Positions 2,603-27,400 of a DNA stretch of 28,480 nucleotides are shown here, piece by piece (within the stretch, counting starts at the first letter, position 1; each line of letters begins with the position of its first letter). Source of the DNA: a virus; the IMG/VR virus record IMGVR_UViG_3300031608_000033, positions 1-28,480 of that record. One strand, written 5' to 3'. Below the pieces are notes generated by a model that saw nothing but the letters and a program-made list of their open reading frames with translations, was not told the origin of the DNA and ran no database searches. Position numbers and translations under genes: made by a program.

Positions 2603-3130
2603 ATGGCATATCAAAAATTACAAACCAGAGAAGCTTTAGTGGTAATACCATCAGATGATGTTCGTATACCAGATCCTAACACAGTTGTTGTATTAGATTT
2701 AGGTAGAGGAGCTACAGTAGTTACTGGATCATTTGCTGTTGCAAACACATTAACAGGCATACTTACTAAGTTTTTAAGTGCAGGTATAAGCCCAGGAGCT
2801 ATTGTATATAACACTACGGCAGCAAAGGCATACTATGTTGTATCTGTGGATAGTGACACTCAGATTACTTTATCTGGAGCTACTGCAGGAGGCGCTGCTG
2901 ATGTGTATAGTATTTATACTAACGCTACAATTGGATGTACTTTATTTGTTGGTGGAACGGGTAATCTTAAAGTTCAGATGGCACAAATAAATGGAAACTC
3001 TGCAACTTTTGGAGGACCAGCTAATGAGGCGGTAACTTATAAAAATATTGCAGACGCATCTTTTTTACCAATACAAGTGGTTAGAGTAGATGATGACAGT
3101 ACGGCTACTGACATTATAGCAATGTGGTAA
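2603..3130 (+). CDS. Capsid decoration / head-fibre-type virion protein (175 aa)
   Basis: The N-terminus is YQKLQTREALVVIPSDDVRI and the C-terminus is FLPIQVVRVDDDSTATDIIA followed by MW. I recognise this ending ('LP.QVVRV...GTTATDI.A.W') from numerous phage virion proteins of roughly this size that are associated with the capsid surface. Residues about 50-106 form an inserted beta-rich module (PGAIVYNTT...AYYVVSVDSDTQITLS...YSIYT) that recurs in the proteins at 21706, 22563 and 24441. Cys112 lies in GCTLFVGG. There is no membrane segment. The gene sits directly after the fibre-like gene and 1 base before the next basic gene. The virion-surface call is fairly firm; the distinction between decoration and fibre is not. 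Confidence 0.65.
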   Translation: MAYQKLQTREALVVIPSDDVRIPDPNTVVVLDLGRGATVVTGSFAVANTLTGILTKFLSAGISPGAIVYNTTAAKAYYVVSVDSDTQITLSGATAGGAADVYSIYTNATIGCTLFVGGTGNLKVQMAQINGNSATFGGPANEAVTYKNIADASFLPIQVVRVDDDSTATDIIAMW

Positions 3131-3131
3131 T

Positions 3132-3527
3132 ATGCCTGATAAGAAAAAAACAAATGCTGTTAAACTTACTACGGTAGAAAAAAATAAGGCTCTTATGGCC
3201 AAGTATAAGAGAGAAAAAAATAATAAGACTAAAACCAAGAGTTCTAAAACTAATCGTACTACACTTAAGAAGAAAAAAAGAATGGTTGATAAGTGGGGTA
3301 ATCCTACAAAACACAATAAAGCAACTAATAAGAATTTAGCTTTTGTTAAAAAGACTGGTAATGATGTTTTAGCAGGTAAAGATAAGGTTAGTAAAGCATT
3401 TAGTTTAGTTGCAGGAGCAGGAGTGTCAGGGGCATTAGCTAAGGTTGCTGCTGCAAAAAAACTTCATAATACTGCTAAGGTTATTAAAACAACCGCTAAA
3501 GTTAAGAAGGGAAATAGTCTTAGTTAA
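3132..3527 (+). CDS. Very basic protein with Ala/Gly hydrophobic segment (131 aa)
   Basis: It starts MPDKKKTNAVKLTTVEKNKA and has a lysine-rich first 85 residues (KYKREKNNKTKTKSSKTNR, TLKKKKRMVDKWGN). A short hydrophobic stretch at residues about 93-112 follows (KAFSLVAGAGVSGALAKVAA), then a basic tail. This copies the layout of the gene at 957: MPD start, cationic arm, Ala/Gly helix, cationic tail. It begins 1 base after the decoration-protein stop. The function is unknown; membrane-active, ejection or DNA-binding roles are all compatible. Confidence 0.7.
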   Translation: MPDKKKTNAVKLTTVEKNKALMAKYKREKNNKTKTKSSKTNRTTLKKKKRMVDKWGNPTKHNKATNKNLAFVKKTGNDVLAGKDKVSKAFSLVAGAGVSGALAKVAAAKKLHNTAKVIKTTAKVKKGNSLS

Positions 3528-3532
3528 TTTTA

Positions 3533-3540
3533 TATATTTG
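3533..3540 (+). promoter_or_regulatory. Possible -7 box (TATATTTG) upstream of the lysis genes
   Basis: TATATTTG fits TAnnTTTG but lacks the TATC start and the TAAAA tail of the other boxes. It lies directly after the stop at 3527. A start near 3547 would give the 51-aa membrane protein at 3616 a leader of about 70 bases. Confidence 0.4.
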
Positions 3541-3545
3541 CAGCT

Positions 3546-3623
3546 ATGAATTGGATACAAACAAGCACATTAACAGAAGATATAATATATGTATCTACTT
3601 CTACAGAATTAAAAAATGACTAA
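3546..3623 (+). CDS. Possible 25-aa leader peptide
   Basis: ATG at 3546 opens a 25-codon frame (MNWIQTSTLTEDIIY...) that ends in TAA at 3621-3623, overlapping the start of the next gene by 8 bases. The overlap suggests translational coupling, but the length is short. The -7 box at 3533-3540 would place transcription start at or after this ATG, making the message nearly leaderless. I treat it as a possible gene only. Confidence 0.3.
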   Translation: MNWIQTSTLTEDIIYVSTSTELKND

Positions 3624-3771
3624 AGATTTGAAAGATACAGTAGAAGTGATCGCTGCCAATGGAGGAGCGTTAGGATTAACATTAGTACAGTGTAATGAAA
3701 TACTTCAATTTATTTCACTTACACTCGCAATAGGATTTACACTTTATAAGTTTATTAAGAAAACAAAGTAA
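3616..3771 (+). CDS. Small membrane protein next to the endolysin (51 aa)
   Basis: This 51-aa protein has a short charged N-terminus (MTKDLKDTVEVIAANGG), a long hydrophobic stretch at residues about 15-45 (LTLVQCNEILQFISLTLAIG) and a basic end, KFIKKTK. That means one or two membrane-spanning helices with a positive C-terminus. It stops 2 bases before the M15 endolysin start. Position and topology suggest a second holin, an antiholin or a lysis accessory protein. I recall similar 50-60 aa membrane proteins beside lysis genes in Bacteroidetes phages, but no defined role. The start ATG overlaps the 25-aa frame upstream. Confidence 0.65.
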   Translation: MTKDLKDTVEVIAANGGALGLTLVQCNEILQFISLTLAIGFTLYKFIKKTK

Positions 3772-3773
3772 TC

Positions 3774-4139
3774 ATGAAATATTTTACCTTACAGGAATTT
3801 GATTCCTCTGATAAGCCAGGCTCAGGTAAATATATGGATGATGATTTCTTAGAGATGATTGATTGTGCACGTGAAGAAGCACAGATTCCTTTTAAAATTA
3901 ATAGTGGGTTTCGTACTGAAGCTAAGAATAATGCTATCTATAAGAGTTTAGGTAAGGATCCGATCAAATCCTCACACTTAAAAGGGTATGCTGCAGATAT
4001 ACACTGTGATAATTCACACAATAGATCAATAATAGTTAGGGCATTAGTAAATGTCGGATTTACACGTTTGGGGATTGCAAAAACCTTCATACATGCCGAC
4101 AACGATTCATCTAAGCCTAACGCAATTTGGTTATATTAA
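3774..4139 (+). CDS. Peptidase M15 family endolysin (121 aa)
   Basis: This is a compact zinc peptidase of the M15A / Peptidase_M15_3 type, expected to cleave peptide crosslinks in host peptidoglycan at lysis. It shows the N-terminal FTLQEFDSSDKPG motif, then NSGFRTEAKN around residues 42-51. The metal motif SSHLKGYAADI follows, with His68 and Asp75 as ligands, and a C-terminal FIHADN carries His107 (third ligand) and Asp109. At 121 residues it is only the catalytic domain, with no signal peptide and no cell-wall-binding domain, so export would depend on a holin. It lies 2 bases after a small membrane protein, and a 3TM holin follows at 4675, forming a lysis module with three small basic genes between. 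Confidence in the family is high. Confidence 0.9.
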   Translation: MKYFTLQEFDSSDKPGSGKYMDDDFLEMIDCAREEAQIPFKINSGFRTEAKNNAIYKSLGKDPIKSSHLKGYAADIHCDNSHNRSIIVRALVNVGFTRLGIAKTFIHADNDSSKPNAIWLY

Positions 4140-4140
4140 T

Positions 4141-4296
4141 ATGGCAAAAAAAGGAAGAACAGGGAAAAAAGTATGTTGGGAGTACGGTAAGGGGAAGTAC
4201 TGTGGTACATTAATATCAAGTAAAGAAACTTCTACTCATAGATACGCAAGAACAGAAAACGGAAAGATTAAGTCTTTACCTAAAAATAAAAAATAA
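4141..4296 (+). CDS. Small basic two-cysteine protein (51 aa)
   Basis: The 51-aa product is MAKKGRTGKKVCWEYGKGKY, then CGTLISSKE, ending KSLPKNKK. It carries a C-x8-C pair flanked by aromatic residues. I chose the ATG at 4141 because it is 1 base after the endolysin stop; an ATG further upstream at 4051 would overlap the endolysin by about 90 bases and add a sequence of different composition. Its stop overlaps the next ATG by 1 base. Function unknown. Confidence 0.65.
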   Translation: MAKKGRTGKKVCWEYGKGKYCGTLISSKETSTHRYARTENGKIKSLPKNKK

Positions 4297-4424
4297 TGGC
4301 TAAGAAATTCAAAATACATAATATGTATAGTAAGACTGGTATTAAGAAAGTTGCTAAAACTATGAAGGATCATTTGTCTTTAAAGAAAAAAGGATATAAT
4401 CATACGCCAAAGAAGAAAAAGTAA
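4296..4424 (+). CDS. Small basic phage protein (42 aa), HL.LKKKGY motif
   Basis: This 42-codon frame overlaps the stop codons of its neighbours by 1 base at both ends (TAATG), a strong sign of a coupled gene. It reads MAKKFKIHNMYSKTGIKKVA, followed by MKDHLSLKKKGYNHTPKKKK. I recall phage miniproteins with 'MY...TG......HL.LKKKGY.H' of unknown function, so this is likely a conserved family. It is basic, with no membrane segment or cysteines. Confidence 0.7.
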   Translation: MAKKFKIHNMYSKTGIKKVAKTMKDHLSLKKKGYNHTPKKKK

Positions 4425-4678
4425 TGGCAACTCCCAGGAAAGGTAAAGCAAAAGTAAAAGTAACTGCTTCTGGAAAGAGAGTGAGTTATGGTCAGGCAGG
4501 AAAAGCTAAAGGTGGTGGATCAAGAGTAAAGCCTGGTACCTCAAAAGGAGATTCTTACTGCGCCAGAAGCTATGGAATAAAAATGGGATTACCTATAGGT
4601 AAAAGAAATGATCCTAACACTCCCAATAATTTATCTCGTAAGAGATGGAAGTGTGTAGGTAAAAAATCAAGACGATGA
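4424..4678 (+). CDS. Conserved basic phage protein (84 aa), YCARSYGIK motif
   Basis: This 84-aa protein has a glycine/lysine-rich N-terminal half (TPRKGKAKVKVTASGKRVSY) and a structured C-terminal half. The latter carries SYCARSYGIKMG, then NDPNTPNNLSRKRWKCVGKK. Two cysteines (in YCARS and WKCVG) frame the segment. I have seen the combination CARS.GI...DPN.PN.LSR..W.C in various phage genomes, typically near structural or lysis genes, without a known function. It overlaps the previous stop by 1 base and the holin start by 4 bases, so it is co-translated with the lysis cassette. Confidence 0.75.
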   Translation: MATPRKGKAKVKVTASGKRVSYGQAGKAKGGGSRVKPGTSKGDSYCARSYGIKMGLPIGKRNDPNTPNNLSRKRWKCVGKKSRR

Positions 4679-5082
4679 TAAAAAATATATTAGGAGGATT
4701 ATTTGGTAAGGTACTTGATAATGCAGAAGGTATATTGGATGAGATTATAACTACCGATGAAGAAAGAGAACAGGCTAAGTTTGCTATAAAAAAAATTATG
4801 TTGGAAGCAGAAAGAGAAGCTTTCAATAAAGAAGTGGAAGACCGTAAAGATGCAAGGTCTTTATACAAAGATGATGCTATTATTCAAAAAATATTAGCTG
4901 CATTATTTACTATAGCTTACTTTCTATTAACCTACACTATGTTTAAATATTTTGTACTTCATGATGTTGTTTTATCAGAGTATGAAATAGGTTTTATATC
5001 TACAGTTTTTGGAGCCATGTCTGCTAAGGTTAATACAATTATTGACTTTTTCTTTGGAGGAAGCAGTAAGCAAAATAAATAA
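4675..5082 (+). CDS. 3TM-superfamily holin (135 aa)
   Basis: Holins form membrane lesions that trigger endolysin access at lysis. The N-terminal half is soluble and helical: LGGLFGKVLDNAEGILDEII, then TTDEEREQAKFAIKKIMLEA. It ends in KDARSLYKDDAIIQK, a layout I recognise from the GTA/phage holin 3TM family (Holin_3TMs type). Hydrophobic segments follow at residues about 76-100 (ILAALFTIAYFLLTYTMFKY) and 105-128 (IGFISTVFGAMSAKVNTIID FFFGG). It overlaps the upstream gene by 4 bases (ATGA) and closes the lysis cassette. A T-rich stretch and a promoter follow. Confidence 0.8.
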   Translation: MIKNILGGLFGKVLDNAEGILDEIITTDEEREQAKFAIKKIMLEAEREAFNKEVEDRKDARSLYKDDAIIQKILAALFTIAYFLLTYTMFKYFVLHDVVLSEYEIGFISTVFGAMSAKVNTIIDFFFGGSSKQNK

Positions 5083-5103
5083 AGTTTATTACATAATTTT
5101 TTT

Positions 5104-5111
5104 TATCTTTG
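5104..5111 (+). promoter_or_regulatory. -7 box (TATCTTTG) opening the fibre operon
   Basis: TATCTTTGTAAAATATTAA repeats the sequence at the 579 site almost base for base. It sits 20 bases after the holin stop, behind an AT-only weak inverted repeat (5078-5090) and eight Ts, which might give mild termination. Transcription from about 5118 would cover the fibre genes from 5140. Confidence 0.7.
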
Positions 5112-5139
5112 TAAAATATTAATAATTAAATAAAATAAA

Positions 5140-5382: not shown

Positions 5383-5383
5383 A

Positions 5384-6166: not shown

Positions 6167-6177
6167 AGAAAAGTAAA

Positions 6178-8073
6178 ATGGCAATAAATTTTTTAGACGG
6201 AATAGATTTTAATGGAACAGAAATATCTAAGGTATTAGTAGAGAGTTTAACTTCAAATCCATCAGGAGCGGCAATCCAAGGTGCGGGACAAATTATTTTT
6301 AATTCAACTATAAATAAATTATCTTACTACAATGGAACTGTATGGGTAGCTTTAGATTCTTCTGGCGCTCCAGGTACGGTTACTTCTGTTAATGGAGGAA
6401 CCTCTACATTTGTTACTAATACAGTTACTAATTCTACAAGTGCTGCGGTATTAACATCTACATTAAGTGCTACTGGAACTCCAGGAGTAGGTAATTTTTT
6501 AAGAGGTGATAACACTTGGGCAGCTATTCCAGCAAGTATGTCTTTTAACTTTTCTGATGGTACAAACACCTTTCAGGTTAGTCAAAATAACACTGTTACT
6601 GTAGAAAGTTCAAATAGTACAATATCAATTTCAGCAGCTACAGCTGATGAGCTTGACTTTAGTTTAGTAAATTCAGGAGTAGCTGCAGGTTCTTATATTT
6701 CTGCAAATATTACAGTAGATGCTTTTGGTAGAGTTACAGCAGCATCTGCTGGTGGTGCTGGAACAATGACTTCTTTTAATGTTGAAGGTAATAGTGGTAG
6801 TACACAAACCATTACTAATGGAGAAACTTTGTCTATTGATGGAGTAGGAATTATCTCTACTGCAATGACTACTGACACTGTTACTATAAAACATGGTCTC
6901 TCAGGTGTTACTGCTGCTTCTTATACTAATCCATCTTCACTTGCAGTTAATGCAGATGGTCACATTACTTCTATTACTTCAGGAGCTGCACCAGGCACAA
7001 TGAGTTCTTGGAGTTTAGCTGCTGACAGTGGTTCTGCTCAATCTATAACTAATGGTAACACAGTAACTATACAAGGTTCTACAGGAATTGACACAGCTGT
7101 TAGTGCAACAGATGATTTAACAATTAACTTAGACTTAGCTGAATTACCTACAGCATCAGCTTTTGTATCTGCTAATGACAAAGTAGTTATTACAGATAAT
7201 GGAGCTAATTCACTAATATTAGCATCATCAATACCAATTAATGATTGGGGAACTGCTGACGGTAATATTGCAATGGGTGCAAATAAATTTACAGGGCTTG
7301 CAGTTGGTACTGCTGGTACAGATTCAGTTAATTTATCACAAGTTCAAGCTTTAGTTGCAGGTGTTGGTGTATTCCAAGGAGCATATAATGCAACTACTAA
7401 CTCTCCAGCATTAACAGGTTCAAGTAATATTGCTCTTACAACAGGTGATTACTTTGTTGTATCAGTAGATGGTACTAATGCAGTATTAGGAACACTTGAA
7501 GTTGGTGATTTAATATTTGCTAATAATACTATTGCAGCTAATTCTTCTCCAAATATTTCTAATTATACAGTAGTAATTCAAGACGCAAACATTGCAGGTG
7601 CAGGATCGACAGATGGAGGTACTGAAAAAGGTGTTGCTGGATTTGACTCTGCAAACTTTACTGTATCAGTTAATGGTTGGGTTAGATTAGGAGCTTCAGG
7701 CGTAACTGCTGGTAGTTACGGAACAGCTTCAACAGTTGGAAAATTCACTGTAGACGCTAAAGGGTTAATAACAGCGGCATCAAATGAAACAATAAGCATA
7801 CCAGCTTCAGGTGTTATTAATTTCTGTAGTGAAGTTGAATCATGTATTTCAACTGCTACAACTAAAAACGGAATTCTTGGAGCTGGATCTTCATTTACTA
7901 TTACTCATAATTTTGGAACAAGAGCCGTTCAGGTAGGTGTATACTTAAATAGTGGTAATTACGATACTGTTTTTGCAAGAATAACAAGACCATCTATAAA
8001 TTCAATAACAATTTCAGTTGCATCAGCAGTATCAGCAAGTGCATTAGCATATAGCATAATTAAGGTAGCATAA
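6178..8073 (+). CDS. Long repeat-containing tail fibre protein (631 aa)
   Basis: This Thr/Ser/Asn/Gly-rich fibre begins MAINFLDGIDFNGTEISKVL, with an IIFNSTINKLSYYNGTVWVA segment typical of fibre N-termini. Residues 65-118 hold the APGTVTSVNGG motif and a GNFLRGDNTWAAIP motif common in Bacteroidetes phage fibres. Residues 166-241 and 242-320 are tandem repeats built on SGV.A.SY...., GTM.S and ITNG.T..I.G..GI. A third, partial copy of the SGVTAGSY...DAKGLITAAS unit lies near residues 500-540. The C-terminal 60 residues (FTITHNFGTRAVQVGVYLNS) form a tip domain like that in the gene at 5384. It should trimerise and bind host surface glycans or proteins. The start follows the A-rich leader AAAGAAAAGTAAA. 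Confidence 0.8.
   Translation: MAINFLDGIDFNGTEISKVLVESLTSNPSGAAIQGAGQIIFNSTINKLSYYNGTVWVALDSSGAPGTVTSVNGGTSTFVTNTVTNSTSAAVLTSTLSATGTPGVGNFLRGDNTWAAIPASMSFNFSDGTNTFQVSQNNTVTVESSNSTISISAATADELDFSLVNSGVAAGSYISANITVDAFGRVTAASAGGAGTMTSFNVEGNSGSTQTITNGETLSIDGVGIISTAMTTDTVTIKHGLSGVTAASYTNPSSLAVNADGHITSITSGAAPGTMSSWSLAADSGSAQSITNGNTVTIQGSTGIDTAVSATDDLTINLDLAELPTASAFVSANDKVVITDNGANSLILASSIPINDWGTADGNIAMGANKFTGLAVGTAGTDSVNLSQVQALVAGVGVFQGAYNATTNSPALTGSSNIALTTGDYFVVSVDGTNAVLGTLEVGDLIFANNTIAANSSPNISNYTVVIQDANIAGAGSTDGGTEKGVAGFDSANFTVSVNGWVRLGASGVTAGSYGTASTVGKFTVDAKGLITAASNETISIPASGVINFCSEVESCISTATTKNGILGAGSSFTITHNFGTRAVQVGVYLNSGNYDTVFARITRPSINSITISVASAVSASALAYSIIKVA
6673..7137 (+). repeat. Two ~77-codon tandem repeats in the 631-aa fibre
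   Basis: Units 6673-6900 and 6901-7137 encode parallel segments: SGV.A.SY, a DA.GR/AD.GHI turn, GTM.S., SGS.Q.ITNG.T..I.G and TD..TI...L. They are clear at the protein level but diverged at the DNA level, so this is old internal duplication. Confidence 0.65.
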
Positions 8074-8085: not shown

Positions 8086-9171
8086 ATGGCAATAGAATTT
8101 AAGGATTCACTTGTTATTGAGGGGGTAGCTTTAGGAACATTAGCATTTTCAAGTGCTACTATTCCGACTAATAACAACCAGTTAACTAATGGTCAGGGGT
8201 ATGTAACTTCAAGTGGAAACACAACTATAGGTATTAATCAAAATAATACTCTTAATACTGCCACTGTATTTGCAACTTTAAATTTTACAAATGGTGTTGC
8301 TACATCTGCAACAACAAGAACTTTAACTCTTGCTAATCTTGGTATTACTGGTTCAGGTGGTAATTCTGCAAATTGGAATACTGCATACCTTGACAGTGTG
8401 TCAGCTATAACTGCTTCAGGAACTTCTACTACAACAATTACTTTAGGTCAGCCAGGTGGTATTATTCAAGTGTCATTTAGTAATCCTCAAGGTACAGTAA
8501 CAAATGTTGCTGCTTCAGTAACTGGTAATGGATTAGCGGTTGCGGTTGCAAATCCAACAACTTCTCCCTCTATTGTTTTAGATTGGCAAGGATCTTCAAC
8601 AGAATATATAAGGGGAGATGGAAATAGAAGTACGTTTCCAACAATTCCAACTAATAATAATCAGTTAACAAATGGGGCTGGTTATATAACCTCAGTACCA
8701 ACGTCTAATAAAGGTTCTTGGTCTCCAGAAAATGCACAAACAATAGCTGGAGGTGGAGCTACTGAAACTCGAGTAACAGTTTTATTTGATACTCCTGAAA
8801 TAACAGAAGTAGGTATGTCTTCTAATGCAAGTGGAAGTGAAGTAGATATTACTGCTGCACAATTAGTAATGATTAGCTTTAATTTTGCAAGTGAAAACGG
8901 TTCAGTTCCTAATAGATTGTTAGCTGGTGCAGTTGTGCAATACGCTCCAAATCGTGGTTCCTTCTCAGATATACAAGGAACACAAGTTTTTAATTATGTT
9001 AGAGGAAACGGTAGTGTAGATAGAGATAGTGGATCGGCTACAGTTTTACATAATGTAGGTGCTAACTCAAAAATCAGGGCTCAATTTTGGATACAAGGAA
9101 GGACATCAACAACATCAGCACTAATATCTCTTATTAGTGGATGTAGATTATCAATAAATCAAATCTCATAA
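8086..9171 (+). CDS. Tail fibre protein (361 aa)
   Basis: It begins MAIEFKDSLVIEGVALGTLA, like the N-terminus of the preceding 631-aa fibre (MAI.F.D...). The motif PTNNNQLTNGQGYVTSSG recurs as PTNNNQLTNGAGYITSVP at residues about 190-207, bracketing a fibre shaft that includes the EYIRGDGNRSTFP element. The C-terminal about 150 residues change to a compact beta domain (TRVTVLFDTPEITEVGMSSN, RAQFWIQGRTSTTSALISL, ending GCRLSINQIS), likely the receptor-binding tip. It lies in the fibre cluster, 12 bases after the previous stop. The fibre family is clear; which receptor it binds is not visible. Confidence 0.75.
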   Translation: MAIEFKDSLVIEGVALGTLAFSSATIPTNNNQLTNGQGYVTSSGNTTIGINQNNTLNTATVFATLNFTNGVATSATTRTLTLANLGITGSGGNSANWNTAYLDSVSAITASGTSTTTITLGQPGGIIQVSFSNPQGTVTNVAASVTGNGLAVAVANPTTSPSIVLDWQGSSTEYIRGDGNRSTFPTIPTNNNQLTNGAGYITSVPTSNKGSWSPENAQTIAGGGATETRVTVLFDTPEITEVGMSSNASGSEVDITAAQLVMISFNFASENGSVPNRLLAGAVVQYAPNRGSFSDIQGTQVFNYVRGNGSVDRDSGSATVLHNVGANSKIRAQFWIQGRTSTTSALISLISGCRLSINQIS

Positions 9172-9214: not shown

Positions 9215-11572
9215 ATGGCAAGAATTGAAAACACCACCGTATATCCTACAATAGTACCATCAGCTGACGATTTACTTATTGGTACTGATGTTAGTAACGA
9301 TAATGAAACGGTTACGTTTTTAGTTAGTAGTTTAACTGGAGGTGCAGGTGTACTTCAGGGTTTACAATCAGTTTTAAATACAGGTAATACTGCAACACAA
9401 AATATTAACTTAACAGGTAATATTGTTGTTGTTGGAACTGTATCACCAACTACTATTACAGCAGGAGGTGGAATTGGGACAGCTGGTCAAGTGCTAAGTT
9501 CAACAGGCGCAGGTTTACAATGGATTGCAGCATCAGGAGCAAATTCTTCTTGGAATGATACTCTATTAATAGGGAATACTGCTACTACAGCATCTGTTGT
9601 AAGTGGAACAAGTATGACATTTACAGGTGTAGGAGCTGATTTAATTATTGCATCCTCTGCTACTTTAACAGGTGTAGGAGTAAGTACTTTTACAGGAAAT
9701 GTAAATATTAATTCAACAGATTTAATATTTAACTCTACAGGTCAAATAAACGCTGGTGGATCTACAGGTACAGCAGGACAATGGTTAGTTTCTACAGGAA
9801 CAGGCTTACAATGGTCATCAACTATTCCAGGATCATCATGCTGTACATTACAAGCTACATTAAGTGCAGGTAATATTGCTAATAATATTGGGATAACATT
9901 TACAGGAACAAGTGTAACTACTTTTTCTTCTGGAAATTCAATTACATCTGCAGCAGCTAATGTTTGGAGTGGTAACAATACTTTTAGCAATAATGGAACA
10001 ACTTCAGTTACAGCTGGAATATATTTATCAGGAACGTTGGCGGATTCAACTGGTGTAGTTGGTACGGCAGGCCAAGTATTAACTTCTACAGGAACTGGAG
10101 TGACATGGTCTCCATCTTCATCAGGAACAAATACATTACAACAAGTATTAAATGCAGGTAATGTTGCTACGGGAGCAAATGCACTTATAAATATAACAGG
10201 TTCTCTTACAGCAGGAACTATACTTGACACATCTTTATCTGCTGGAGCAGCAGGCCAGGTATTAAGCTCAACAGGTTCTGGGTTAGCTTGGGTTGCAACT
10301 ACATGTTGTAATTTAAATGACACTTTAGCTGTAGGAGCTACTTCAGCTTTAAGTATTACCTTAACAGGTACTGCAAGTATTACCTTACCAACAGTTATAC
10401 CAACAAATATACAGGCTAATGGATCTATAGGATCAAACGGTCAGTTTTTAGGAATTAGTGGAGGAATTCTAACATGGATCAATCCAAGTCTTGTAAATAC
10501 CACTTACACTTATTCAGTTCCAGCTGCTACTACTAATTTAAATCTTCTTGATAACAATGGGAATAATCAAAATATAACATTAACGGGAGTTAATGGCGTA
10601 GTTATCACAAGAAGTAGTTCTTCTCAATTAGTAATAGCAAATTCTGGAATAATTTCACTTACAGTAGGTTCTCCACTTATTTCTGCAGGTGCTCCACTTA
10701 CTACGAGTACTACTAATGGAGTAGTTACTCTATCGCAAAGAGTATACGTTGGAGGTTCTAACCTTGGTGTAGTTCCATCTGGAGGAACAAACACAACTTT
10801 TTTAAGAGGAGATGGTACATGGGTAATACCTTCTGGTGGATCTGTAGGAGTTACACAAGTGTTGTTAGGAGCAAGTGGCACATCGGTAGGACAACCTTTA
10901 ACTGTAACTACTGTGGGAACTGTAGCTACTGTTAGTCCTAAAAGATATGCAGGGGGAACTTTAGAAGGATTTGTACCGCAGGGAGGAACAAACACAACTT
11001 TTTTAAGAGGAGATGGTTCGTGGGTAACACCTTCTGGATCAGGAGGAGGATCAAACAATTTTTCAACTAATTTTAAATTTGGAGTTAAAGATGTTAATAT
11101 GTATCAGGAGTATTATTCTTATGGTAATATATCTCAAGGTTCATGGAGTCCAAGTGGTGCTGATCAATTAGTTTATGTAAGTACTTCTACTGGATCTGGA
11201 TGGACTAATTCTCAAAAATTAGGAGCTACAATATATGGTAATGCAAATAATGGAACTTCTTCTTGCGCAACTGACACTCTTCAAAGTAATTTATGTGGTG
11301 GTGTCGTATCTATAGCTGGTACTTCTGGTGCTCCATTTCTTATAGAATTTTTTAAATATGATCCATGTAATGCTTCTTATACTCCTTCAAAAGTTGGAGC
11401 CGTATCTATTACTACTACTGGTACAGACAATTTAGTATGTGGTAATGTAAGTTTATCTCCAAATTCATTTGTGGGTACAGAAGCTTTATATTTTACTATA
11501 ACACAATCATCATCAGGTACTGTAAGTGTTCAAGGAAGATGTGATTTAAGATGGGCATATACAGCAGTATAA
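9215..11572 (+). CDS. Largest fibre / receptor-binding protein (785 aa)
   Basis: The N-terminal anchor (MARIENTTVYPTIVPSADDL, LIGTDVSNDN) parallels that of the gene at 5384. The shaft carries five copies of a G.AGQ.L.STG.GL.W motif at residues about 88-103, 186-200, 283-298, 345-359 and 405-421, alternating with TLQ..L..GN.A units. Two of these intervals contain vicinal cysteines (GSSCCTLQ, TTCCNLND). Residues about 520-610 hold two near-identical GGTNTTFLRGDG.WV.PSG blocks. After a GSGGGSNN linker comes a 170-residue C-terminal domain (YYSYGNISQGSWSPSGADQL, SSCATDTLQSNLCGGV, ending GRCDLRWAYTAV) with several cysteines, likely the receptor-binding tip. It probably forms a trimer on the tail. 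Confidence 0.8.
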   Translation: MARIENTTVYPTIVPSADDLLIGTDVSNDNETVTFLVSSLTGGAGVLQGLQSVLNTGNTATQNINLTGNIVVVGTVSPTTITAGGGIGTAGQVLSSTGAGLQWIAASGANSSWNDTLLIGNTATTASVVSGTSMTFTGVGADLIIASSATLTGVGVSTFTGNVNINSTDLIFNSTGQINAGGSTGTAGQWLVSTGTGLQWSSTIPGSSCCTLQATLSAGNIANNIGITFTGTSVTTFSSGNSITSAAANVWSGNNTFSNNGTTSVTAGIYLSGTLADSTGVVGTAGQVLTSTGTGVTWSPSSSGTNTLQQVLNAGNVATGANALINITGSLTAGTILDTSLSAGAAGQVLSSTGSGLAWVATTCCNLNDTLAVGATSALSITLTGTASITLPTVIPTNIQANGSIGSNGQFLGISGGILTWINPSLVNTTYTYSVPAATTNLNLLDNNGNNQNITLTGVNGVVITRSSSSQLVIANSGIISLTVGSPLISAGAPLTTSTTNGVVTLSQRVYVGGSNLGVVPSGGTNTTFLRGDGTWVIPSGGSVGVTQVLLGASGTSVGQPLTVTTVGTVATVSPKRYAGGTLEGFVPQGGTNTTFLRGDGSWVTPSGSGGGSNNFSTNFKFGVKDVNMYQEYYSYGNISQGSWSPSGADQLVYVSTSTGSGWTNSQKLGATIYGNANNGTSSCATDTLQSNLCGGVVSIAGTSGAPFLIEFFKYDPCNASYTPSKVGAVSITTTGTDNLVCGNVSLSPNSFVGTEALYFTITQSSSGTVSVQGRCDLRWAYTAV
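9476..10477 (+). repeat. Five G.AGQ.L.STG.GL.W repeats in the 785-aa fibre
   Basis: The repeated motif starts at codons about 88, 186, 283, 345 and 405, so spacing is about 98, 97, 62 and 60 codons: two long units, then two shorter ones. The last copy is degenerate (GSNGQFLGISGGILTW). This is a typical fibre-shaft repeat that can expand or contract by recombination. Confidence 0.65.
10781..11017 (+). repeat. Exact 36-base direct repeat in the fibre gene
   Basis: An identical 36-base segment encoding GGTNTTFLRGDG occurs at 10781-10816 and 10982-11017, 201 bases apart. Flanking codons are also similar (TGGGTAAYACCTTCTGG after each). Such exactness in a gene with otherwise diverged repeats points to a recent duplication or ongoing gene conversion. 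Confidence 0.75.
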
Positions 11573-19062: not shown

Positions 19063-20511
19063 ATGCCAGTAATTACACCCCCAGGCTTTGACTTGCAGCC
19101 AAGTGGCCAGCAAGTAGCCTTAGCAACAAACTACATCACTAACTTTGATTTTCTTAATCAGTATCTTCCAGATACATACGAGAAAGAATTTGAGCGTTAT
19201 GGTAATAGAACAGTAGCATCATTCTTAAGAATGGTAGGCGCTGAAATGCCTTCAAACTCAGACCTTATTAAATGGGCTGAACAAGGAAGGTTACATACTA
19301 AATACACAGGAGCAACATCTGCAGCAGCACCTGGAGTTGCTGTTGACACATGGACTATCCCAGTAGCACAACAAAACCCACCTGCTCCAGCATCAAGTGC
19401 TCCAGCAAATGGATTTTCAGCTATTAGAGTTGGACAGACTCTTATGATCTCTGATGAGACTGCAGGATCTGTATTAAGTAACAAAGCAATTGTAACTGCA
19501 GTAAATGCAGCAAATGGAGCAGTAACAGTAGCTTACTATGAGGCAGGAGGAAAAACTATGTTAGCAGCAGCTAATTGTACTATCTTTATTTACGGTTCTG
19601 AATTTCAAAAAGGAACTTTAGGTATGGCTGGATCAATAGAAGCTCAAGACCTTATTTTCCAAAATTCTCCAATCATCATCAAAGACACTTACGAAGTAAG
19701 CGGTTCTGACATGGCACAAATTGGATGGGTTGAGATTCAAACAGAAAACGGAGGTACAGGATACCTATGGTACTTAAAATCTGAGCACGAAACAAGACTT
19801 CGTTTTGAAGACTATCTTGAGACTGCAATGGTTGAAGCGGTTCCAGCAGCAGCAGGTTCTGGTGCAGCAGCAATTGCTTTAGGTGCAGCAGGAGGTATGG
19901 GTAACAAAGGTTCTGAAGGAATTTTCTTTGTAGTTAATAACAGAGGAAATGTTTGGAATGGAGGTAACCCAGTTGCTCTTGCAGGATTTGACAGTGTTAT
20001 CCAGAGATTAGATAAGCAAGGTGCTATTGAAGAAAATGTTATTTTCTGTAACAGACAATTCTCATTTGATATTGACGATATGTTAGCTGCTCAAAACTCT
20101 TACGGAGCTGGAGGAACTTCATACGGTTTATTTGATAATGACGAAGAAATGGCTTTAAACTTAGGTTTCACAGGATTCCGTAGAGGTTATGACTTCTACA
20201 AGTCTGACTGGAAATACTTAAACGATCCTACAATGAGAGGTGGTTTAACAGGAGGAGCAATCAATGGACTTATGGTTCCAGCTGGTTCAACTACTGTATA
20301 TGACCAAATCTTAGGTAAGAACGCTAAGAGACCATTCTTACATGTAAGATACAGAGCTTCTGAAACTGAAGATAGACGTTACAAAACTTGGATCACTGGT
20401 TCAGCTGGTGGAGCAAGAACATCTTCTTTAGATGCAATGACTGTTAATTTCTTATCTGAAAGAGCTGTATGTACTTTAGGTGCAAACAACTTCTTCTTAT
20501 TTAGAGATTAA
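19063..20511 (+). CDS. Major capsid protein, crAss-like HK97 fold (482 aa)
   Basis: The sequence TNFDFLNQYLPDTYEKEFER, then YGNRTVASFLRMVGAEMPSN and SDLIKWAEQGRLHTKYTG, matches what I recall of crAss-like major capsid proteins, including those of Cellulophaga podoviruses. Residues about 118-180 form a beta-rich insertion (IRVGQTLMISDETAG...NKAIVTAVNAANGAVTV... CTIFIYGSEF). Later segments (GGMGNKGSEGIFFVVNNRGN, NLGFTGFRRGYDFYKSDWKY, FLHVRYRASETEDRRYKTW) complete the capsid core. At 482 aa it is of normal length. Codon use differs slightly from neighbours (more C-ending codons such as TTC, AAC and GAC), as expected for a very abundant protein. It is preceded by scaffold and followed at once by a strong terminator. 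Confidence 0.93.
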   Translation: MPVITPPGFDLQPSGQQVALATNYITNFDFLNQYLPDTYEKEFERYGNRTVASFLRMVGAEMPSNSDLIKWAEQGRLHTKYTGATSAAAPGVAVDTWTIPVAQQNPPAPASSAPANGFSAIRVGQTLMISDETAGSVLSNKAIVTAVNAANGAVTVAYYEAGGKTMLAAANCTIFIYGSEFQKGTLGMAGSIEAQDLIFQNSPIIIKDTYEVSGSDMAQIGWVEIQTENGGTGYLWYLKSEHETRLRFEDYLETAMVEAVPAAAGSGAAAIALGAAGGMGNKGSEGIFFVVNNRGNVWNGGNPVALAGFDSVIQRLDKQGAIEENVIFCNRQFSFDIDDMLAAQNSYGAGGTSYGLFDNDEEMALNLGFTGFRRGYDFYKSDWKYLNDPTMRGGLTGGAINGLMVPAGSTTVYDQILGKNAKRPFLHVRYRASETEDRRYKTWITGSAGGARTSSLDAMTVNFLSERAVCTLGANNFFLFRD

Positions 20512-21427: not shown

Positions 21428-21706
21428 ATGGAAAAATTCTTATCAATCCCAGTTACAGGCGCAGGGAACGTTCTTTTGAACGTAAATGAAGTCCTGTCAG
21501 TAACAGCTGCAACCGCAACAAATGTAGAAACAGTTATTACTTACCTTAACGGTAACACTGCAACAATTACAGCGGCAGCTCAAGTAGCATTTAGTGTTAG
21601 AAAAGAAATTCAAGACGCAATGGTATTTGCTCTTCAAACTTCTTGGACAAGAGTAGTTTACAAAGTAATTCCTTCTAAAGCTGTTTCTGCAATAGTAATA
21701 GCATAA
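21428..21706 (+). CDS. Small virion protein, short paralogue of the next gene (92 aa)
   Basis: The 92-aa product (MEKFLSIPVTGAGNVLLNVN, then EVLSV...VETVITYLNGNT) continues with RKEIQDAMVFALQTSWTRVV. It aligns along its length with the two ends of the next protein: MGKFINVPL at the start, then GGRLVNIENVLNS and AFEELMIDTLESNWKHIV at the C-terminus. The two genes are therefore duplicates, the second with an insertion. The ATG at 21428 was chosen because the upstream ATG at 21371 lies inside the terminator and would run through the promoter. The beta-rich N-part plus amphipathic helix suggests a small structural or decoration protein. It overlaps the next ATG by 1 base. Confidence 0.75.
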   Translation: MEKFLSIPVTGAGNVLLNVNEVLSVTAATATNVETVITYLNGNTATITAAAQVAFSVRKEIQDAMVFALQTSWTRVVYKVIPSKAVSAIVIA

Positions 21707-22479
21707 TGGGAAAGTTTATTAATGTGCCTCTCCCGCTTTACAGTGTAACAGCGGACATGGCTACACCAGCTATAGCAGGAACTTCTTCGGGAGCTGCGAC
21801 TGGTAAATTAACTTTCGCTACAGGTGGCTTTAATGCTACGGTAGCAGTAGGATATGTAGTTTTAAATACTGCAACATTTACTGTGTCTACAGTAACTGCT
21901 GTAGATAGTGATACTGTTTTAAGTATTTCTGGAAACGGTAACGCTACTTTAGAAGCTTCAGGAGCTACATTTAAAATATGGTCTGCTACAGCTGCTTTTG
22001 AATTTTTAGTTGCTTCTGGAAATTTTAAAACTGACGTTAGAGTAGGCGATGTTGTTGTTAATTTTACTTCTGGTAGAACTGCTACAGTTGCTAAAGTAAA
22101 CAGTGACATTTCATTACAATTAGATCGTGTAATTTTTGATGATAATGGTAGTGATGCTGCTGTCGTAATATCTCAAAATGGATTTGGAGGTAGATTAGTT
22201 AACATAGAAAATGTTCTTAATTCATCTCCAATAATTGGAGGCGCTGGAACTGCACCTGTTGAATTAACTTATAGAACTAAAACTGCAGCTACTGACACTC
22301 TAACTATTAATATCTCAGAAGCACAAGCTAATTATAGTTGGCAAATGGCTTTTGAAGAACTTATGATTGACACATTAGAGTCTAACTGGAAACATATTGT
22401 AAATGAAATGCCTTTAATTGCTTCTCCTTCAGGATCGGGAGCTCCAATATTATATGCAACATCTGTGACTTTAGCTTAA
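21706..22479 (+). CDS. Virion protein with two inserted beta modules (257 aa)
   Basis: The N-terminus (MGKFINVPLPLYSV) and residues 163-257 (RLVNIENVLNSSPIIGG, VELTYRTKTAATDTLTINIS, MAFEELMIDTLESNWKHIVN) match the 92-aa protein encoded just upstream. Between them lie two copies of a roughly 60-residue beta-rich module: residues about 34-93 (VGYVVLNTATFTVSTVTAVD, SDTVLSISG, FKIWS) and 98-155 (VGDVVVNFTSGRTATVAKVN, SDISLQLDRVIF). The same module appears in the proteins at 2603, 22563 and 24441. An exposed structural role (decoration or neck) is likely. It overlaps the upstream gene by 1 base and is followed by a terminator. Confidence 0.75.
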   Translation: MGKFINVPLPLYSVTADMATPAIAGTSSGAATGKLTFATGGFNATVAVGYVVLNTATFTVSTVTAVDSDTVLSISGNGNATLEASGATFKIWSATAAFEFLVASGNFKTDVRVGDVVVNFTSGRTATVAKVNSDISLQLDRVIFDDNGSDAAVVISQNGFGGRLVNIENVLNSSPIIGGAGTAPVELTYRTKTAATDTLTINISEAQANYSWQMAFEELMIDTLESNWKHIVNEMPLIASPSGSGAPILYATSVTLA

Positions 22480-22536: not shown

Positions 22537-22544
22537 TATCTTTG
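22537..22544 (+). promoter_or_regulatory. -7 box (TATCTTTG) opening the tail/connector operon
   Basis: TATCTTTGTAAAAATGTTTAA matches TAnnTTTG and the GTAAAA tail seen at 579, 5104 and 9184. It lies 19 bases before ATG 22563. The -33 position falls inside the terminator hairpin. It would drive the two connector genes and the giant tail gene. Confidence 0.7.
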
Positions 22545-22562
22545 TAAAAATGTTTAAATAAT

Positions 22563-23516
22563 ATGGCGGCATCAATAAACGAAGTAAGAAATACTGTATT
22601 AGCAATAGCGAATAAAAATAACTACGGATATATATCTCCACAAGACTTTAACCTTTATGCAAAGCAAGCTCAAATGGATATGTTTGAGGACTACTTTTAT
22701 TCATATAATAATTGGATCAATAGAGAAAATGGAAGAACTTCTGGAACAGGATATGCTAATATAACAAAAGGATTAGTTGAGGTAATGGATGGTTTTTCTA
22801 CTCAAGTTTTTTTAGGTCAAGCAAATGCAAATACATTTAATTTGCCTAATGATTATTATCTAATAAATAAATTATTTTATTATTCTACTGTTTTATTTAC
22901 AGGAACAGCAACAGGTGTTAATACTAATCAATTAATAGATGCTGCAGCTGTAGGATGGACTACAATACCAGCTTCAGCACCAACGCCAAAAATAGGTGCA
23001 ATAGTAGTAAATACAAGTACGCTACAACAAGCATATATAACTGGGGTAGTAAGTACTAATACAATTACTTTAAGTTCTGATATATTTTTAGCAGTAGGAA
23101 ATAGTTATGCTATATATTCTAATACTAATATTAGAGAAGTAGAAAGAGTAAATCAAAATAAAATATTTCTTTTAACTAATTCCATGTTAACAGCTCCAAA
23201 TAAAACATATCCAGCGTATGTACTGGACGGAAATATAATTACAGTATATCCATCTACTGTTTTAAATGTAGGAGATATACAAGCACAATATATAAGATAT
23301 CCACTTTCTCCAAGATGGACTTTTCAAAATTTATTATTAGGAGAACCACAATTTGATCCTAATCAAGCTGACTTTCAAGAATTTGAATTACCAGATTCTG
23401 ACGAACCTACTTTGATTGCAAAGATTTGTCAGTATGTAGGAATAGAAATTAGAGAGGCTGATGTTTATAATTTTGGATCAACTGAAGAAAATAACGATAC
23501 ACAAGAAACAAGTTAA
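22563..23516 (+). CDS. Head-tail connector / ring-type protein (317 aa)
   Basis: The N-terminus INEVRNTVLAIANKNNYGYI, then SPQDFNLYAKQAQMDMFEDY, followed by INRENGRTSGTGYANI and LPNDYYLINKLFYYS, is a signature I recall from conserved crAss-like phage proteins of the connector/tail-ring region. Residues about 118-188 are an inserted beta module (IGAIVVNTSTLQQAYITGVV, STNTITLSSDIF, SYAIYS), also present in three other virion proteins here. After it comes REVERVNQNKIFLLTNSMLT, then YPAYVLDGNIITVYPS and QAQYIRYPLSPRW, a gp4/gp11-like adaptor feature in which a return to a beta core precedes the end. The acidic C-terminus (STEENNDTQETS) looks flexible. It starts the last operon; the next gene follows after 2 bases. 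Confidence 0.75.
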   Translation: MAASINEVRNTVLAIANKNNYGYISPQDFNLYAKQAQMDMFEDYFYSYNNWINRENGRTSGTGYANITKGLVEVMDGFSTQVFLGQANANTFNLPNDYYLINKLFYYSTVLFTGTATGVNTNQLIDAAAVGWTTIPASAPTPKIGAIVVNTSTLQQAYITGVVSTNTITLSSDIFLAVGNSYAIYSNTNIREVERVNQNKIFLLTNSMLTAPNKTYPAYVLDGNIITVYPSTVLNVGDIQAQYIRYPLSPRWTFQNLLLGEPQFDPNQADFQEFELPDSDEPTLIAKICQYVGIEIREADVYNFGSTEENNDTQETS

Positions 23517-23518
23517 CT

Positions 23519-24439
23519 ATGGCATATATTACAGATTATCAATACTACGAAAATGGAGGAATAGTACCTGAAGATGCGAATTGGGGTTCTTATCAATATG
23601 TTACATTAGAAAATATTGTAAATAATTTTATGTTAATGTATCAAGGTAATAATGAATTAATTAATAACATTAATCGTTATCAAGTATTATTTCATGCAAA
23701 AAGAGGAGTTCAAGAATTGAACTATGATGCAATGAAAGAAATAAAAATATTAGAGTTAAGGGTGTGTGATCAATTAAGATTTATATTACCACAAGATTAT
23801 GTTAACTGGGTAAGAGTTTCAGAAATGAGAGATGGAATGTTATTTCCTTTAACTGAAAATATTCAAACAAATTGGAGCGGAGCTTACTTGCAAGACCATG
23901 ACTGTAAAATATTATTTGATGTAGATGGTAATGTTTTAAAACCTCATAATTCTGTCTTTGATATTGCAAGATTAGCTGGTCAACAAAAAAATATGTATTT
24001 AGGAAGTGGTCCTTATAATGGTCAAATGGGTTATTGTTGTGATGGTAACTGGGCTTTTGATTATAATGTACAAGGAAGATTTGGTTTAAATACAGAAACA
24101 GCAAACATAAACCCTACTTTTAGTATTAATAAAAAGGGAGGTGTAATTAATTTTACATCAGTAATGGCAGGTAAGTATGTGGTATTAGAATATGTTTCTG
24201 ATGGAATGGAAAATGGTGATGACTCAAGTGTAAGTGTAAATAAAATGTTTGAAGACTTTATTTATGCATATATTAAATATGCTATTTTAAACAGTAAACA
24301 TGGAGCGCAAGAATATATTATTAATAGAGCAAGAAAAGATAAATCTTCTTTATTAAGAAATGCTAAAATAAGATTAAGTAATATACATCCAGGAAGACTT
24401 TTAATGAATATGAGAGGTCAGAATAAATTGATAAAATAA
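23519..24439 (+). CDS. Tail-tube/ring-type connector protein (306 aa)
   Basis: The sequence YYENGGIVPEDANWGSYQYV, then TLENIVNNFMLMYQGN and RYQVLFHAKRGVQELNYDAM, KEIKILELRV continues with LPQDYVNWVRVSEMRDGMLF, PLTENIQTNW. I recognise this as a conserved crAss-like family annotated as a tail tubular or ring protein, comparable in role to P22 gp4 or T7 gp11, which extend the portal into the tail. The second half (KKGGVINFTSVMAGKYVVLE) leads to an amphipathic helix, FEDFIYAYIKYAILNSKHGA, and a basic end, NIHPGRLLMNMRGQNKLIK. It follows the ring-type gene by 2 bases and precedes the giant tail gene by 1 base, consistent with an ordered tail-assembly operon. Confidence 0.78.
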   Translation: MAYITDYQYYENGGIVPEDANWGSYQYVTLENIVNNFMLMYQGNNELINNINRYQVLFHAKRGVQELNYDAMKEIKILELRVCDQLRFILPQDYVNWVRVSEMRDGMLFPLTENIQTNWSGAYLQDHDCKILFDVDGNVLKPHNSVFDIARLAGQQKNMYLGSGPYNGQMGYCCDGNWAFDYNVQGRFGLNTETANINPTFSINKKGGVINFTSVMAGKYVVLEYVSDGMENGDDSSVSVNKMFEDFIYAYIKYAILNSKHGAQEYIINRARKDKSSLLRNAKIRLSNIHPGRLLMNMRGQNKLIK

Positions 24440-24440
24440 T

Positions 24441-27400
24441 ATGGCTAAATCATCAACTAATTTCATAGGTGGTAAGATGAATAAAAGCGTGGATGAACGT
24501 TTAGTTCCACCAGGTGAATATATAGACGCTCTTAATGTACGTTTAGGATCTACTGAAGCTACTGAAATAGGAGCTGTAGAAAATTCTAAAGGTAACACTG
24601 CTCTTACAGCAGTTCAGTTTTTAGGAGAAAACATAAGTCCATCAGCAAGAACGATTGGTTGTTATGAAGATGGGGTTAATGAAACTCTTTACTGGTTTAT
24701 AACTGATCCTGATAATTCACTTTCTATTGTTACAGGTAAAGTTGATTTAATAGTTTCTTACAATACACAAACATCTACGTTAGTGTATCATGTTATTAGT
24801 ACTCAAGTTTTAAATTTTGATAAAGAATTTTTAATTACAGGTGTTAGTAAAATAGAAGATCTTTTATTTTTTACTGATGATTTAAATCCTCCAAGAGTTA
24901 TAAACGTACAAAAATCACCACCAGGATATTTACTTCCACTTCCTTCAGGTTTAGATCAGTTAGTTGAAGAGGATATTAGTGTAATTGTAAAGCCACCTGG
25001 CTATGAGGAATATGGTGTAGGTACACCAGGGATTCGTCCTTTAGCAACTCCTTCTGTACAATTAATTAATATTGAACCACCTACAGCAAATAATGTTTTA
25101 TTGCCTGATGAAATAGTAGTTGGAGGACAAGAAAATTATATAAAGACAAGATTTTTATCTTTTGCTTATAGGTATAGATATGAAGATGGTGGATATAGTG
25201 CTATATCTTTATTTTCAGTTCCCGCATTTCAACCTTTGACATTTGAATTTAGTATTCAAACCTATTTAAATGCTGGTATGTTTAACAGATTTAATGCTTG
25301 TAATGTTACTTTTTCTACAGGACCAAAACAAGTAGTAGAAGTAGATTTACTTTACAAACAGACCACAAGTAATGTTATATATGTAATTAAAAGATATAAC
25401 AAAGTAAACGAGGGATGGGCTAATAATGATTTTAAGACTATTTTATTTGACAATAGTGAAATATATACTACGTTAGGATCAGATGAATTATTAAGATTAT
25501 ATGATAATGTTCCAAGAATTGCTAAAGCTCAAACTATTCAAGGAAATAGATTAGTTTATGGTAACTACATAGATGGGTATGATATTAAAGATGCTCCAGA
25601 TGGAAATGAAATAAAAATAACTTATAATACTCAACCATTTTCAGAAGAGATTTCAGGTGTAACATTAGGTGATGATACTGTTCCTAATCCTTTTCTTTCT
25701 ACTTTAGCTTATACTATAGGGCCAGGGGATCCAGGAGTTGACTCTGTAATTACATGGGATTTATCAAAAGTAGATGTTGATTTACCAACTGGTATTCCAG
25801 AAGGCGTAGTATTTAACTTTAGATTTGAAATGTCTTCTCAAACTGTAACTTCAAGTGGATATACTCAAGAATCTCCGTTTACTATAAGTATGACATATAC
25901 TGTTGCTACAATTGGTGGATTTCCTAATGTGGCTGCTATGTGTGCATCAACAGAATTTAAAAATAGAATTGGTGGCTCATTAGCTCAAAATCAAGGAACA
26001 TTGGCTCAAAATCTTTATCCTTGTAATAACTCTGATCAAGGGACAACATTAACAGATAAATTTTATTCAGAAGCATTAGCAATAGAACCATCAACAGGTT
26101 TTGAATTAGTAAATGGTGGTAGATTTACTGGAGATACCTGTGTTTTTCCTACAACATCTTTTCCTGCTCCTTGTACTTCTACTGCTTTTGGAAGTGGAAT
26201 AACTTATTGTGGTCCACAAGTACCTCCATTAACTGTTGCTTTAGGACCTTGTACAGCAGGGCTTTTAACAGATGAGAGTGGTGTAGATTTTACTGATACC
26301 ACTCAATATCCACCCCTTGGCGTTTTAGCTGGTGATATAGTTAAAGATAATATAACAGGGTTTATAGCAACAATTTCAGCGGTTACCGCTACTACATTAA
26401 CAATAGCTAATATAACACCTATTGCTCCTGCTGTACTTCAAGATGCTGTTTCATTATTAGAGGTTTCAGGTCGTTCATATCAACTGTTCCCAGGTGGAGC
26501 GGGAACTGCCCTTTGTTCTCCTCAAGGATTTGAATACACTTCTGATGCAACTACTCCAGATGGATTTAGTCTTGCTATCCCTGCTACTCAATATTATGAT
26601 GCTGGTGGCCTAAGTAACTTCTTATTTTATGAGTTTGTTTTATATGGATGTAGTGCTGGATATATTCTGGATGCAGATCAAGGTAGTTTACATTCTAACA
26701 GAGATTATGAAACAGGGGTTGTATATTTGGATAATCAAGGTAGAGCATCTACTGTATTAACAAGTGATAATAATACAACATTTTTTGATCCTAAGACTTC
26801 AGTATATAAAAACAAAATAAAAGTAACACTTGAAAATAAACCTCCTTATTGGGCTACTCATTATAAGTTTGTAGTTAAACCAAGTGAAGGAACTTATTTT
26901 ACTGTATTCTCTAATATATTTTATGCTCAAGATGGTACTGGTAAAAATGAAGCAGGTTATAGTAATGAAAACGATCCAAGTTTAGTATGGTTTCAATTAA
27001 ATGGTAACAACCAAAATTTAATAAAAGTAGGTGATGAGCTTATAGTAAAAGTTGATACTGCAGGTCCAATTCAAGACGAAGAAAAAACTACAGTATTAGC
27101 AGTTGAAGGCTTTGGATCAAAAGGTATTACGAATAAATCTTTAGCTGGATTATATATGTTACTTAAACCATCTGGCTGGACTATTGAATCTCAAAAGAAA
27201 AGTTATTATAGAGGAAATAAAAGTAAAGACGCAGAAGATAGTAAGGGATCTGATAGATATTCATCTGGATGTATTTCTAATTATTCTTTAAATGAAGATG
27301 AATCGGTAACCCCTCCAGTTCCTTATGATATACCTGCTGGATCAACTATTAGAATAAAAATTAGTAATTGGAGAGGTGGTGGTGGTGGAAAATGTGATAG

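Follow-up and report, generated by a model that had tools for sequence, protein, structure and literature searches.

The 28,480-base IMG/VR record IMGVR_UViG_3300031608_000033, analysed over its whole length and hereafter called the window, carries structural genes of an uncultured phage. Profile comparisons indicate that one homologous module is present there in five copies within four virion proteins, namely the head-spike base, the tail ring, the muzzle and G257. This partly bears out a preliminary description of the same DNA, made from the letters alone, according to which one beta-rich block recurs in a decoration-type protein, the 257-aa protein, a ring-type protein and a giant tail protein. 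Two modelled copies are predicted to form a six-stranded barrel. We propose that the module is an insertable accessory barrel acting in adhesion, a reading that we accept about as readily as we doubt it.

Profile tests of the five copies

The block positions given in the preliminary description were confirmed, and their limits were refined by profile (Table 1). The motif printed with them is loose: it has no exact match in any of the 18 window proteins, yet 12 of its 14 fixed positions are present in the spike base, the ring and the first copy of G257, against 9 or fewer in 200 shuffles of the 18 joined proteins. The muzzle, with 7 of 14, stands at chance level. In a leave-one-out test, each copy was omitted from the profile in turn and the profile was searched against the same 18 proteins. 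Four of the five copies were recovered (spike base 18.7 bits; the other scores are in Table 1), while the muzzle copy was missed (-0.6 bits). The idea that a profile of the clear copies would retrieve the others therefore held for four of them; the muzzle failed singly and was confirmed through its orthologues, and the capsid protein, proposed as a looser relative, was not retrieved.

The muzzle score in the window rises with the breadth of the profile, from 3.5 bits with 71 segments of related loci (38 ring, 32 G257 and 1 muzzle) to 9.7 bits once spike copies are added and 12.8 bits (E 9e-5) with profile A3, which holds no muzzle rows. Taken singly, only 4 of 76 muzzle open reading frames (ORFs) pass E 0.05 with the related-loci profile. 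Membership is settled because the orthologue rows, taken together, match the module profile: 16 muzzle rows (window included) aligned with 62 module rows free of muzzle sequences at an HHalign probability of 97.2% (E 3e-11, 64 columns). As a control, 200 segments were drawn over the muzzle, capsid and ring alignments in forward and reversed orientation. The muzzle insert scored 50.5 (range 50-57), whereas none of 183 control segments exceeded 15.5 (the highest scores were 15.0 among 100 reversed segments and 15.5 among 83 forward segments outside modules). A longer record, G001 (51,977 bases), has a ring and a spike base 100% identical to those of the window; searched with a profile holding one muzzle row of another phage, it yielded five places, the muzzle place at 21.2 bits (E 1.4e-5), and this place still scored 16.9 bits (E 3e-4) with a profile lacking muzzle rows. 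By these comparisons the muzzle copy is a member of the module family.

Table 1. Module copies, capsid block and host genes in the window (aa, amino acids; AF2, AlphaFold2; pLDDT, predicted local distance difference test)
Feature	Positions	Strand	Basis
Module copy 1, spike base aa 38-112	2714..2938	+	Profile tests; AF2 model; missing in short orthologues
Module copy 2, G257 aa 22-98	21769..21999	+	27.3 bits left out; 65.7 bits in further profile search
Module copy 3, G257 aa 99-160	22000..22185	+	14.8 bits left out; 38.5 bits in further profile search
Module copy 4, ring aa 112-191	22896..23135	+	29.7 bits left out; 86.2 bits in further profile search; pLDDT 84-93 across insert
Module copy 5, muzzle aa 598-692	26232..26516	+	Most divergent copy; orthologue-profile HHalign
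Capsid-protein block, about aa 80-184	19300..19614	+	Taken as the capsid's own I-domain; not a module member by sequence
Head-spike base, 175 aa, RCAP_Rcc01079 family, module in loop	2603..3130	+	NF048002 via orthologue
G111, module-less short paralogue of G257	21428..21706	+	HHalign; start placed at ATG 21428, ORF listed from GTG 21371
G257, two tandem modules, gene between capsid and ring genes	21706..22479	+	Profile, HHalign
Crassvirus-type tail ring, 317 aa	22563..23516	+	phrog_14543 E 4e-40; AF2 model
Muzzle, at least 1346 aa, runs off window end	24441..28480	+	PF25731, phrog_14478

Presence, absence and sites of insertion

Each of the four host proteins has orthologues, or a paralogue, that lack the module, and the module occupies three sites among muzzle relatives and two among spike bases; the earlier suggestion that it behaves as a removable insert is thus upheld. 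Among 77 unique spike-base ORFs found by profile search, 54 carry the module, 42 of them within one loop and the other 12 at the hairpin that follows (a site placed by aligning 4 of the 12), and 19 module-free proteins measure 88-120 aa. The remaining four (L096, L110, L117 and L122; 184-191 aa) hold at the module site a block too divergent for the profile, possibly a decayed or sister module. The best 80 of 515 ring relatives all carry the module, and it is lacking in the three more distant relatives compared (elemo, Manatee and Panino).

In the muzzle, 16 of 30 rows have the module at the site used in the window and 14 do not. Rows with the module form one side of a branch with a support of 100 in a tree in which the window and L001 are the same sequence and from which three rows, partial or divergent, were left out. 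Since the module is missing from the outer branches once the tree is midpoint-rooted, a single gain at this site would be the simplest history, unrooted counts being unable to separate gain from loss. Two relatives without it at this site carry it elsewhere (L172 at aa 131-195, L170 at aa 1289-1349). The short paralogue without modules noted earlier beside G257 is G111, with which aa 156-237 of G257 align (HHalign 95.2%, E 2.6e-8). G111-type proteins form neighbouring paralogues in some relatives (L062:7093-7777, L181:2342-2996), so that G257 appears to be one of a small expanding family beside the capsid gene.

Mapped onto a tree of 140 modules, the labels of the host proteins require 36 changes, compared with 93.7 in shuffles; the tree is built on 63 columns, most of its forks are open, and the spike copies are scattered (11 changes). 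After entry, copies seem mostly to have been inherited with their host protein. Homogenisation within genomes was not seen, the modules of this tree grouping by host protein. Recent copying between proteins was likewise rejected, with no high-identity DNA pair among the 60 of 1,341 cross-protein pairs listed; the best-scoring reaches 74% identity over 162 bases, and shorter stretches reach up to 83% over 59 bases.

Predicted fold and known families

AF2 models were obtained for two of the five copies, the ring copy within the ring model and the spike-base module alone (mean pLDDT 78.6, under 60 at both ends). The superposition of copies suggested in the preliminary description could be followed for this pair, and both copies fall on the same stretches of the same chains. 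In VIA-align they match 6tba_7A at about 163-263 (Z 8.1 and 8.5, over 75-76 residues), the Acinetobacter phage Solidus tailspike 24qj at 390-476 (Z 8.4 and 8.2) and the lambda tail tip 8k35 at 489-569 (Z 7.7 and 7.9). Chain 7A was taken as the hub of the gene transfer agent (GTA) by its length and residue range, not by label. LKA1 gp49 (4ru4) follows with Z 7.2, and barrels of F1-/V-ATPase and E1 match both copies at Z of about 6.4-7.3; alanyl-tRNA synthetase is matched as well. Foldseek gave no PDB match at E 0.001; the P22 I-domain 2m5s ranked 18 (E 0.17, probability 0.98, template modelling score 0.62), and 12 predicted viral proteins reached E 0.001 or better, four of them with tail names.

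The two modelled copies would thus share the insertion-barrel fold of LKA1 gp49 and the RcGTA hub (Z 7.2-8.5 over 68-76 residues), a Z near 8 not being proof. Because the matches span tailspikes, the GTA hub, ATPases, E1 and the P22 I-domain, the fold is best described as a common six-stranded barrel, and the LKA1 authors noted a similar barrel in the tailspike, the P22 coat protein and the V-ATPase. The fold is therefore already known, as the preliminary description had suspected, and matches solved structures, while the sequence family is unnamed by Pfam, NCBIfam and PHROGs scans.

For 23 module sequences, no Pfam family fell below E 0.011, and the only match of immunoglobulin (Ig) type was Big_14 (E 0.032; 14.6 bits for member 1, cut-off 27). 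PHROGs returned weak matches of the 23 members to tail-fibre families and unnamed ones, in their N-terminal parts (phrog_17834 at E 1e-4 for 1 of 23, phrog_1980 for 6 of 23, best 0.0018), on account of which a distant kinship with fibre N-termini is possible. Profiles A1 and A3 found nothing at E 0.001 among PDB sequences (best 0.033 and 0.29, to other molecules). Two consensus sequences compared by tblastn, a method less sensitive than a profile, with 50,697 records of isolated phages gave nothing at E 1; a profile search found one module copy in the uncultured record MW202828, and none was found in plasmids. A description of the module was not recognised in the literature, as judged from the titles and abstract openings listed, with subscription papers largely outside coverage.

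Spread beyond the window

Consensus-driven scans of IMG/VR retrieved 32 and 143 relatives (80 of the 143 were kept). Altogether, 353 copies were counted in 290 ORFs across 266 partly redundant loci. After masking of the module, its hosts fall into 22 clusters (BLASTP 1e-4), ten of which, outside the large clusters, hold a single unique ORF each. Three clusters (two G257-like and one G111-like) are by similarity probably one family, so about 20 kinds of host proteins are involved. They come mostly from uncultured viruses and include a tail-collar-like protein, an 800-aa protein, a Laminin_G_3 protein and a leucine-rich DUF285 protein.

In cellular genomes searched, the module is rare: a consensus-based scan of genome contigs gave 3 loci, and, with the carriers themselves counted, 395 genomes sampled from the order of one carrier yielded 2 with the module and 395 from the phylum of another yielded 5. 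A flavobacterial ORF of 2,393 aa holds one cellular copy at its residues 750-817, within a repeat series; this ORF presumably has a signal-like start and cadherin-like repeats, as taken from reading the translation and from no scan. Two flavobacterial proteins that look secreted and measure about 2,400 aa (L267 and L268, ORFs from 2754 and 2781) hold one module each (82-83 bits), with neighbours that, by reading, do not look phage-like. A deltaproteobacterial tail-like protein (L269:3993-6191) carries two modules, and two further genomes of its phylum likewise have two-module ORFs, one of 716 and one of 751 aa. The earlier remark that similar blocks occur in other Bacteroidetes phages was hence true but too narrow, as it left aside the proteins of uncultured viruses, deltaproteobacterial tail-like proteins and flavobacterial secreted-looking ones.

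Host proteins and source virus

The first carrier, called decoration-type in the preliminary description, is instead a head-spike base. NF048002 (cut-off 28) gives 63.6 bits to its module-free orthologue L139 and 25.2 bits, below the cut-off, to the window protein, which the insert splits. L139 also matches by sequence the spike base chains of PDB 8cjz and 6tb9 (E 2.8e-5 and 7e-5). An NCBIfam scan of nine proteins, four module carriers among them, named only the spike base. The AF2 model of the ring has the fold of the phicrAss001 ring (Foldseek E 2e-6 and VIA Z 11.4 to tail barrel chain 7qoj_D), with no sequence match in PDB. The muzzle matches Pfam crAss_MUZ PF25731 with 38.8 bits (cut-off 27), over residues 5-159 only, and phrog_14478 at E 4e-181. 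PHROGs gives names to terminase and portal; its families for capsid, ring and muzzle are labelled 'virion structural protein'.

The source virus is crAssphage-like, as judged by muzzle and ring resemblance only. A tblastn search with the ring points to kinship with the Flavobacterium 'elemo' phages and the Maribacter phage Panino (27-43% identity among the records listed). At the left end of the window lie four small, very lysine-rich ORFs (142-567, 604-927, 957-1493 and 3132-3527), three of which begin MPDPKKK, MPDPVKK or MPDKKK; they resemble DNA-binding or packaged basic proteins. Fibre-like proteins are encoded at 6178-8073, 8086-9171 and 9215-11572, two with LRGDGTW- or GQVLSSTG-type repeats, and none of the three gave a module score against the module profile. 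The small ORF at 3774-4139 may, by position and reading, be the peptidase M15 / D-Ala-D-Ala carboxypeptidase gene annotated in related phages L154 and L153.

Discussion

In the proposed adhesion mechanism, the coding sequence of a six-stranded barrel of about 60-80 residues would have entered loops of working virion proteins, at different sites and without breaking them. The barrels would stand outside the head spikes, the tail barrel and the muzzle, and would act as many weak binding sites for host extracellular material, most likely polysaccharide, keeping the phage close to the cell before its true receptor is met. The outward position of the module is probable but stays inferred, because the insertion points were not mappable on the phicrAss001 particle, the capsid and muzzle orthologue profiles having found no solved relative by sequence.

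Sugar binding is plausible by analogy. In the GTA study (PMC7296036), hub stretch 168-249 is called oligosaccharide-binding because it resembles the LKA1 insertion domain. Its authors propose polyvalent capsule binding, with many such sites, distributed over head spikes and tail, helping the particle through the capsule. RcGTA spike bases are reported there as pentamers, and the phicrAss001 rings and muzzle as dodecamers and a hexamer, respectively (PMC10172136); with numbers borrowed from these relatives, dozens of barrels per particle would be expected. The ring module has a median ratio of non-synonymous to synonymous substitution rates (dN/dS) of 0.26, compared with 0.11 for the ring body (338 pairs, 33 of 37 rows, many pairs being near silent-site saturation), and such faster change may fit an exposed binding part and equally a lightly constrained structural one. 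The Laminin_G_3 protein, the tail-collar-like protein and the secreted-looking flavobacterial protein were counted in favour of adhesion.

Several observations weigh against this proposal. The matching barrels of ATPase, E1 and alanyl-tRNA synthetase give no sign of sugar binding, and a Z of about 8 may mean a common arrangement only; sequence relatives among solved structures are lacking at E 0.001. For the GTA and LKA1 barrels, too, a part in sugar binding is mostly inferred, and the LKA1 authors call the role of the insertion domain in enzyme activity unclear. No conserved exposed aromatic typical of a carbohydrate module was seen by eye. Moreover, elemoF and Panino, the nearest cultured relatives scanned from the ring search, have 0 module matches each, yet are infective.

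The module could instead be structural cement, a barrel that ties neighbouring subunits together and makes spike, tail barrel and muzzle more rigid, in the manner ascribed to the P22 I-domain. This is unlikely, although it deserves serious consideration: the P22 I-domain is among the Foldseek matches, the LKA1 authors noted the P22 coat barrel as likely stabilising subunit contacts, and spike bases, rings and muzzle are oligomeric in RcGTA and phicrAss001. However, the proteins that carry the module differ in symmetry, a single protein can take it at several sites, relatives assemble without it, and it changes faster than the ring body. Less probable again is a tolerated hitch-hiker, a domain-sized sequence spread by recombination, harmless in exposed loops and without phage function. 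The many unrelated host proteins, the several insertion sites and the patchy presence in spike base and muzzle would be expected of such an element, whereas the purifying selection on ring copies, the retention of a copy in all of the best 80 of 515 ring loci and the 74% identity of the best cross-protein DNA pair listed, with no recent burst seen, are at odds with it.

We consider it very unlikely that the capsid block is a sixth, older copy of the module and perhaps its source. It shows a local likeness of 24-25 columns to the module that, at 15.5, is the best of the 83 forward control segments. The phicrAss001 capsid I-domain is moreover said to resemble that of P22 (PMC10172136), which is a six-stranded barrel (PMC11243222) like the structural matches of the module. 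Reversed segments nonetheless reach 15.0, HHalign gives 1-2% in both tests run for the muzzle and up to 4.1% against one sub-family profile, and the domain scores of the capsid protein in the leave-one-out search are below 0; the looser relative suspected earlier is thus not a sequence relative. Furthermore, 48 of 48 aligned capsid rows carry the block, at one place, including Panino and elemoF, whole records without any module. As a module copy the block is accordingly rejected. It is taken to be, by position and reading, the beta-barrel I-domain described in the phicrAss001 paper (PMC10172136) as widespread in crassviruses. The likeness, if real, is possibly one of fold only, six-stranded barrels being found in capsid I-domains as well. 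Finally, chance resemblance of Thr/Ser/Val-rich beta proteins, which would agree with a motif that no copy fits exactly and a muzzle copy missed by the profile of the other four, can be almost wholly discounted, since four copies were recovered when left out, the muzzle insert far exceeds every control segment, reversed ones included, and presence or absence is clean at the same limits.

Returning to adhesion, a bolder form of this reading holds that one sugar-binding barrel, copied into head spike, capsid-region protein, tail barrel and tail tip, makes much of the surface of a marine-type Bacteroidota phage a polyvalent adhesive, and that it is a mobile domain, exchanged among unrelated viruses and passed into a protein secreted by the host; this is possible but on the whole doubtful. 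Accessory domains common to unrelated phage proteins are known already. A domain recognisable by sequence that one virus has in four of its proteins, each with relatives lacking it, amounts to a natural experiment on virions gaining parts, and the several insertion sites in two of the four hosts add to its value. If glycan binding is true, proteins of the tail barrel and head, distant from the receptor-binding tip, would help adsorption, and the module, as a short expressible domain, is usable for a direct binding test. Naming it would label a block found repeatedly, in about 20 protein kinds.

Comparison with known systems

Ig-like domains are accessory domains of phages and are often appended to proteins, while the module is inserted inside them. 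Like Ig-like and BACON domains, the module is common to unrelated virion or tail proteins; it differs from them in that none of the 23 module sequences has a Pfam match above cut-off. For BACON arrays, host binding has been proposed (PMC6949934), and tail fibres and tailspikes are documented cases of domain shuffling (PMC10684548). With the P22-type and crassvirus I-domain, the module shares the insertion of a barrel into a virion protein, as reflected in the match to 2m5s; the difference lies in the lack of a sequence relation to the window's capsid block and in the fixed single place of that block across capsid rows.

The insertion domains of tailspikes (LKA1 gp49, 4ru4 284-370; KP34 gp57; Solidus 24qj) resemble the module as six-stranded barrels inserted in a host domain. 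The LKA1 and KP34 barrel completes a catalytic groove, whereas the module hosts of the window matched no depolymerase family in Pfam, PHROGs and NCBIfam scans. Another parallel in structure is the GTA hub, a barrel domain within a longer virion protein that is the best or near-best match to both modelled copies and is proposed as one of many sugar sites per particle (PMC7296036), although no sequence relation to the module was found. In the GTA, according to that study, these sites are of several kinds, whereas here one sequence family serves several proteins.

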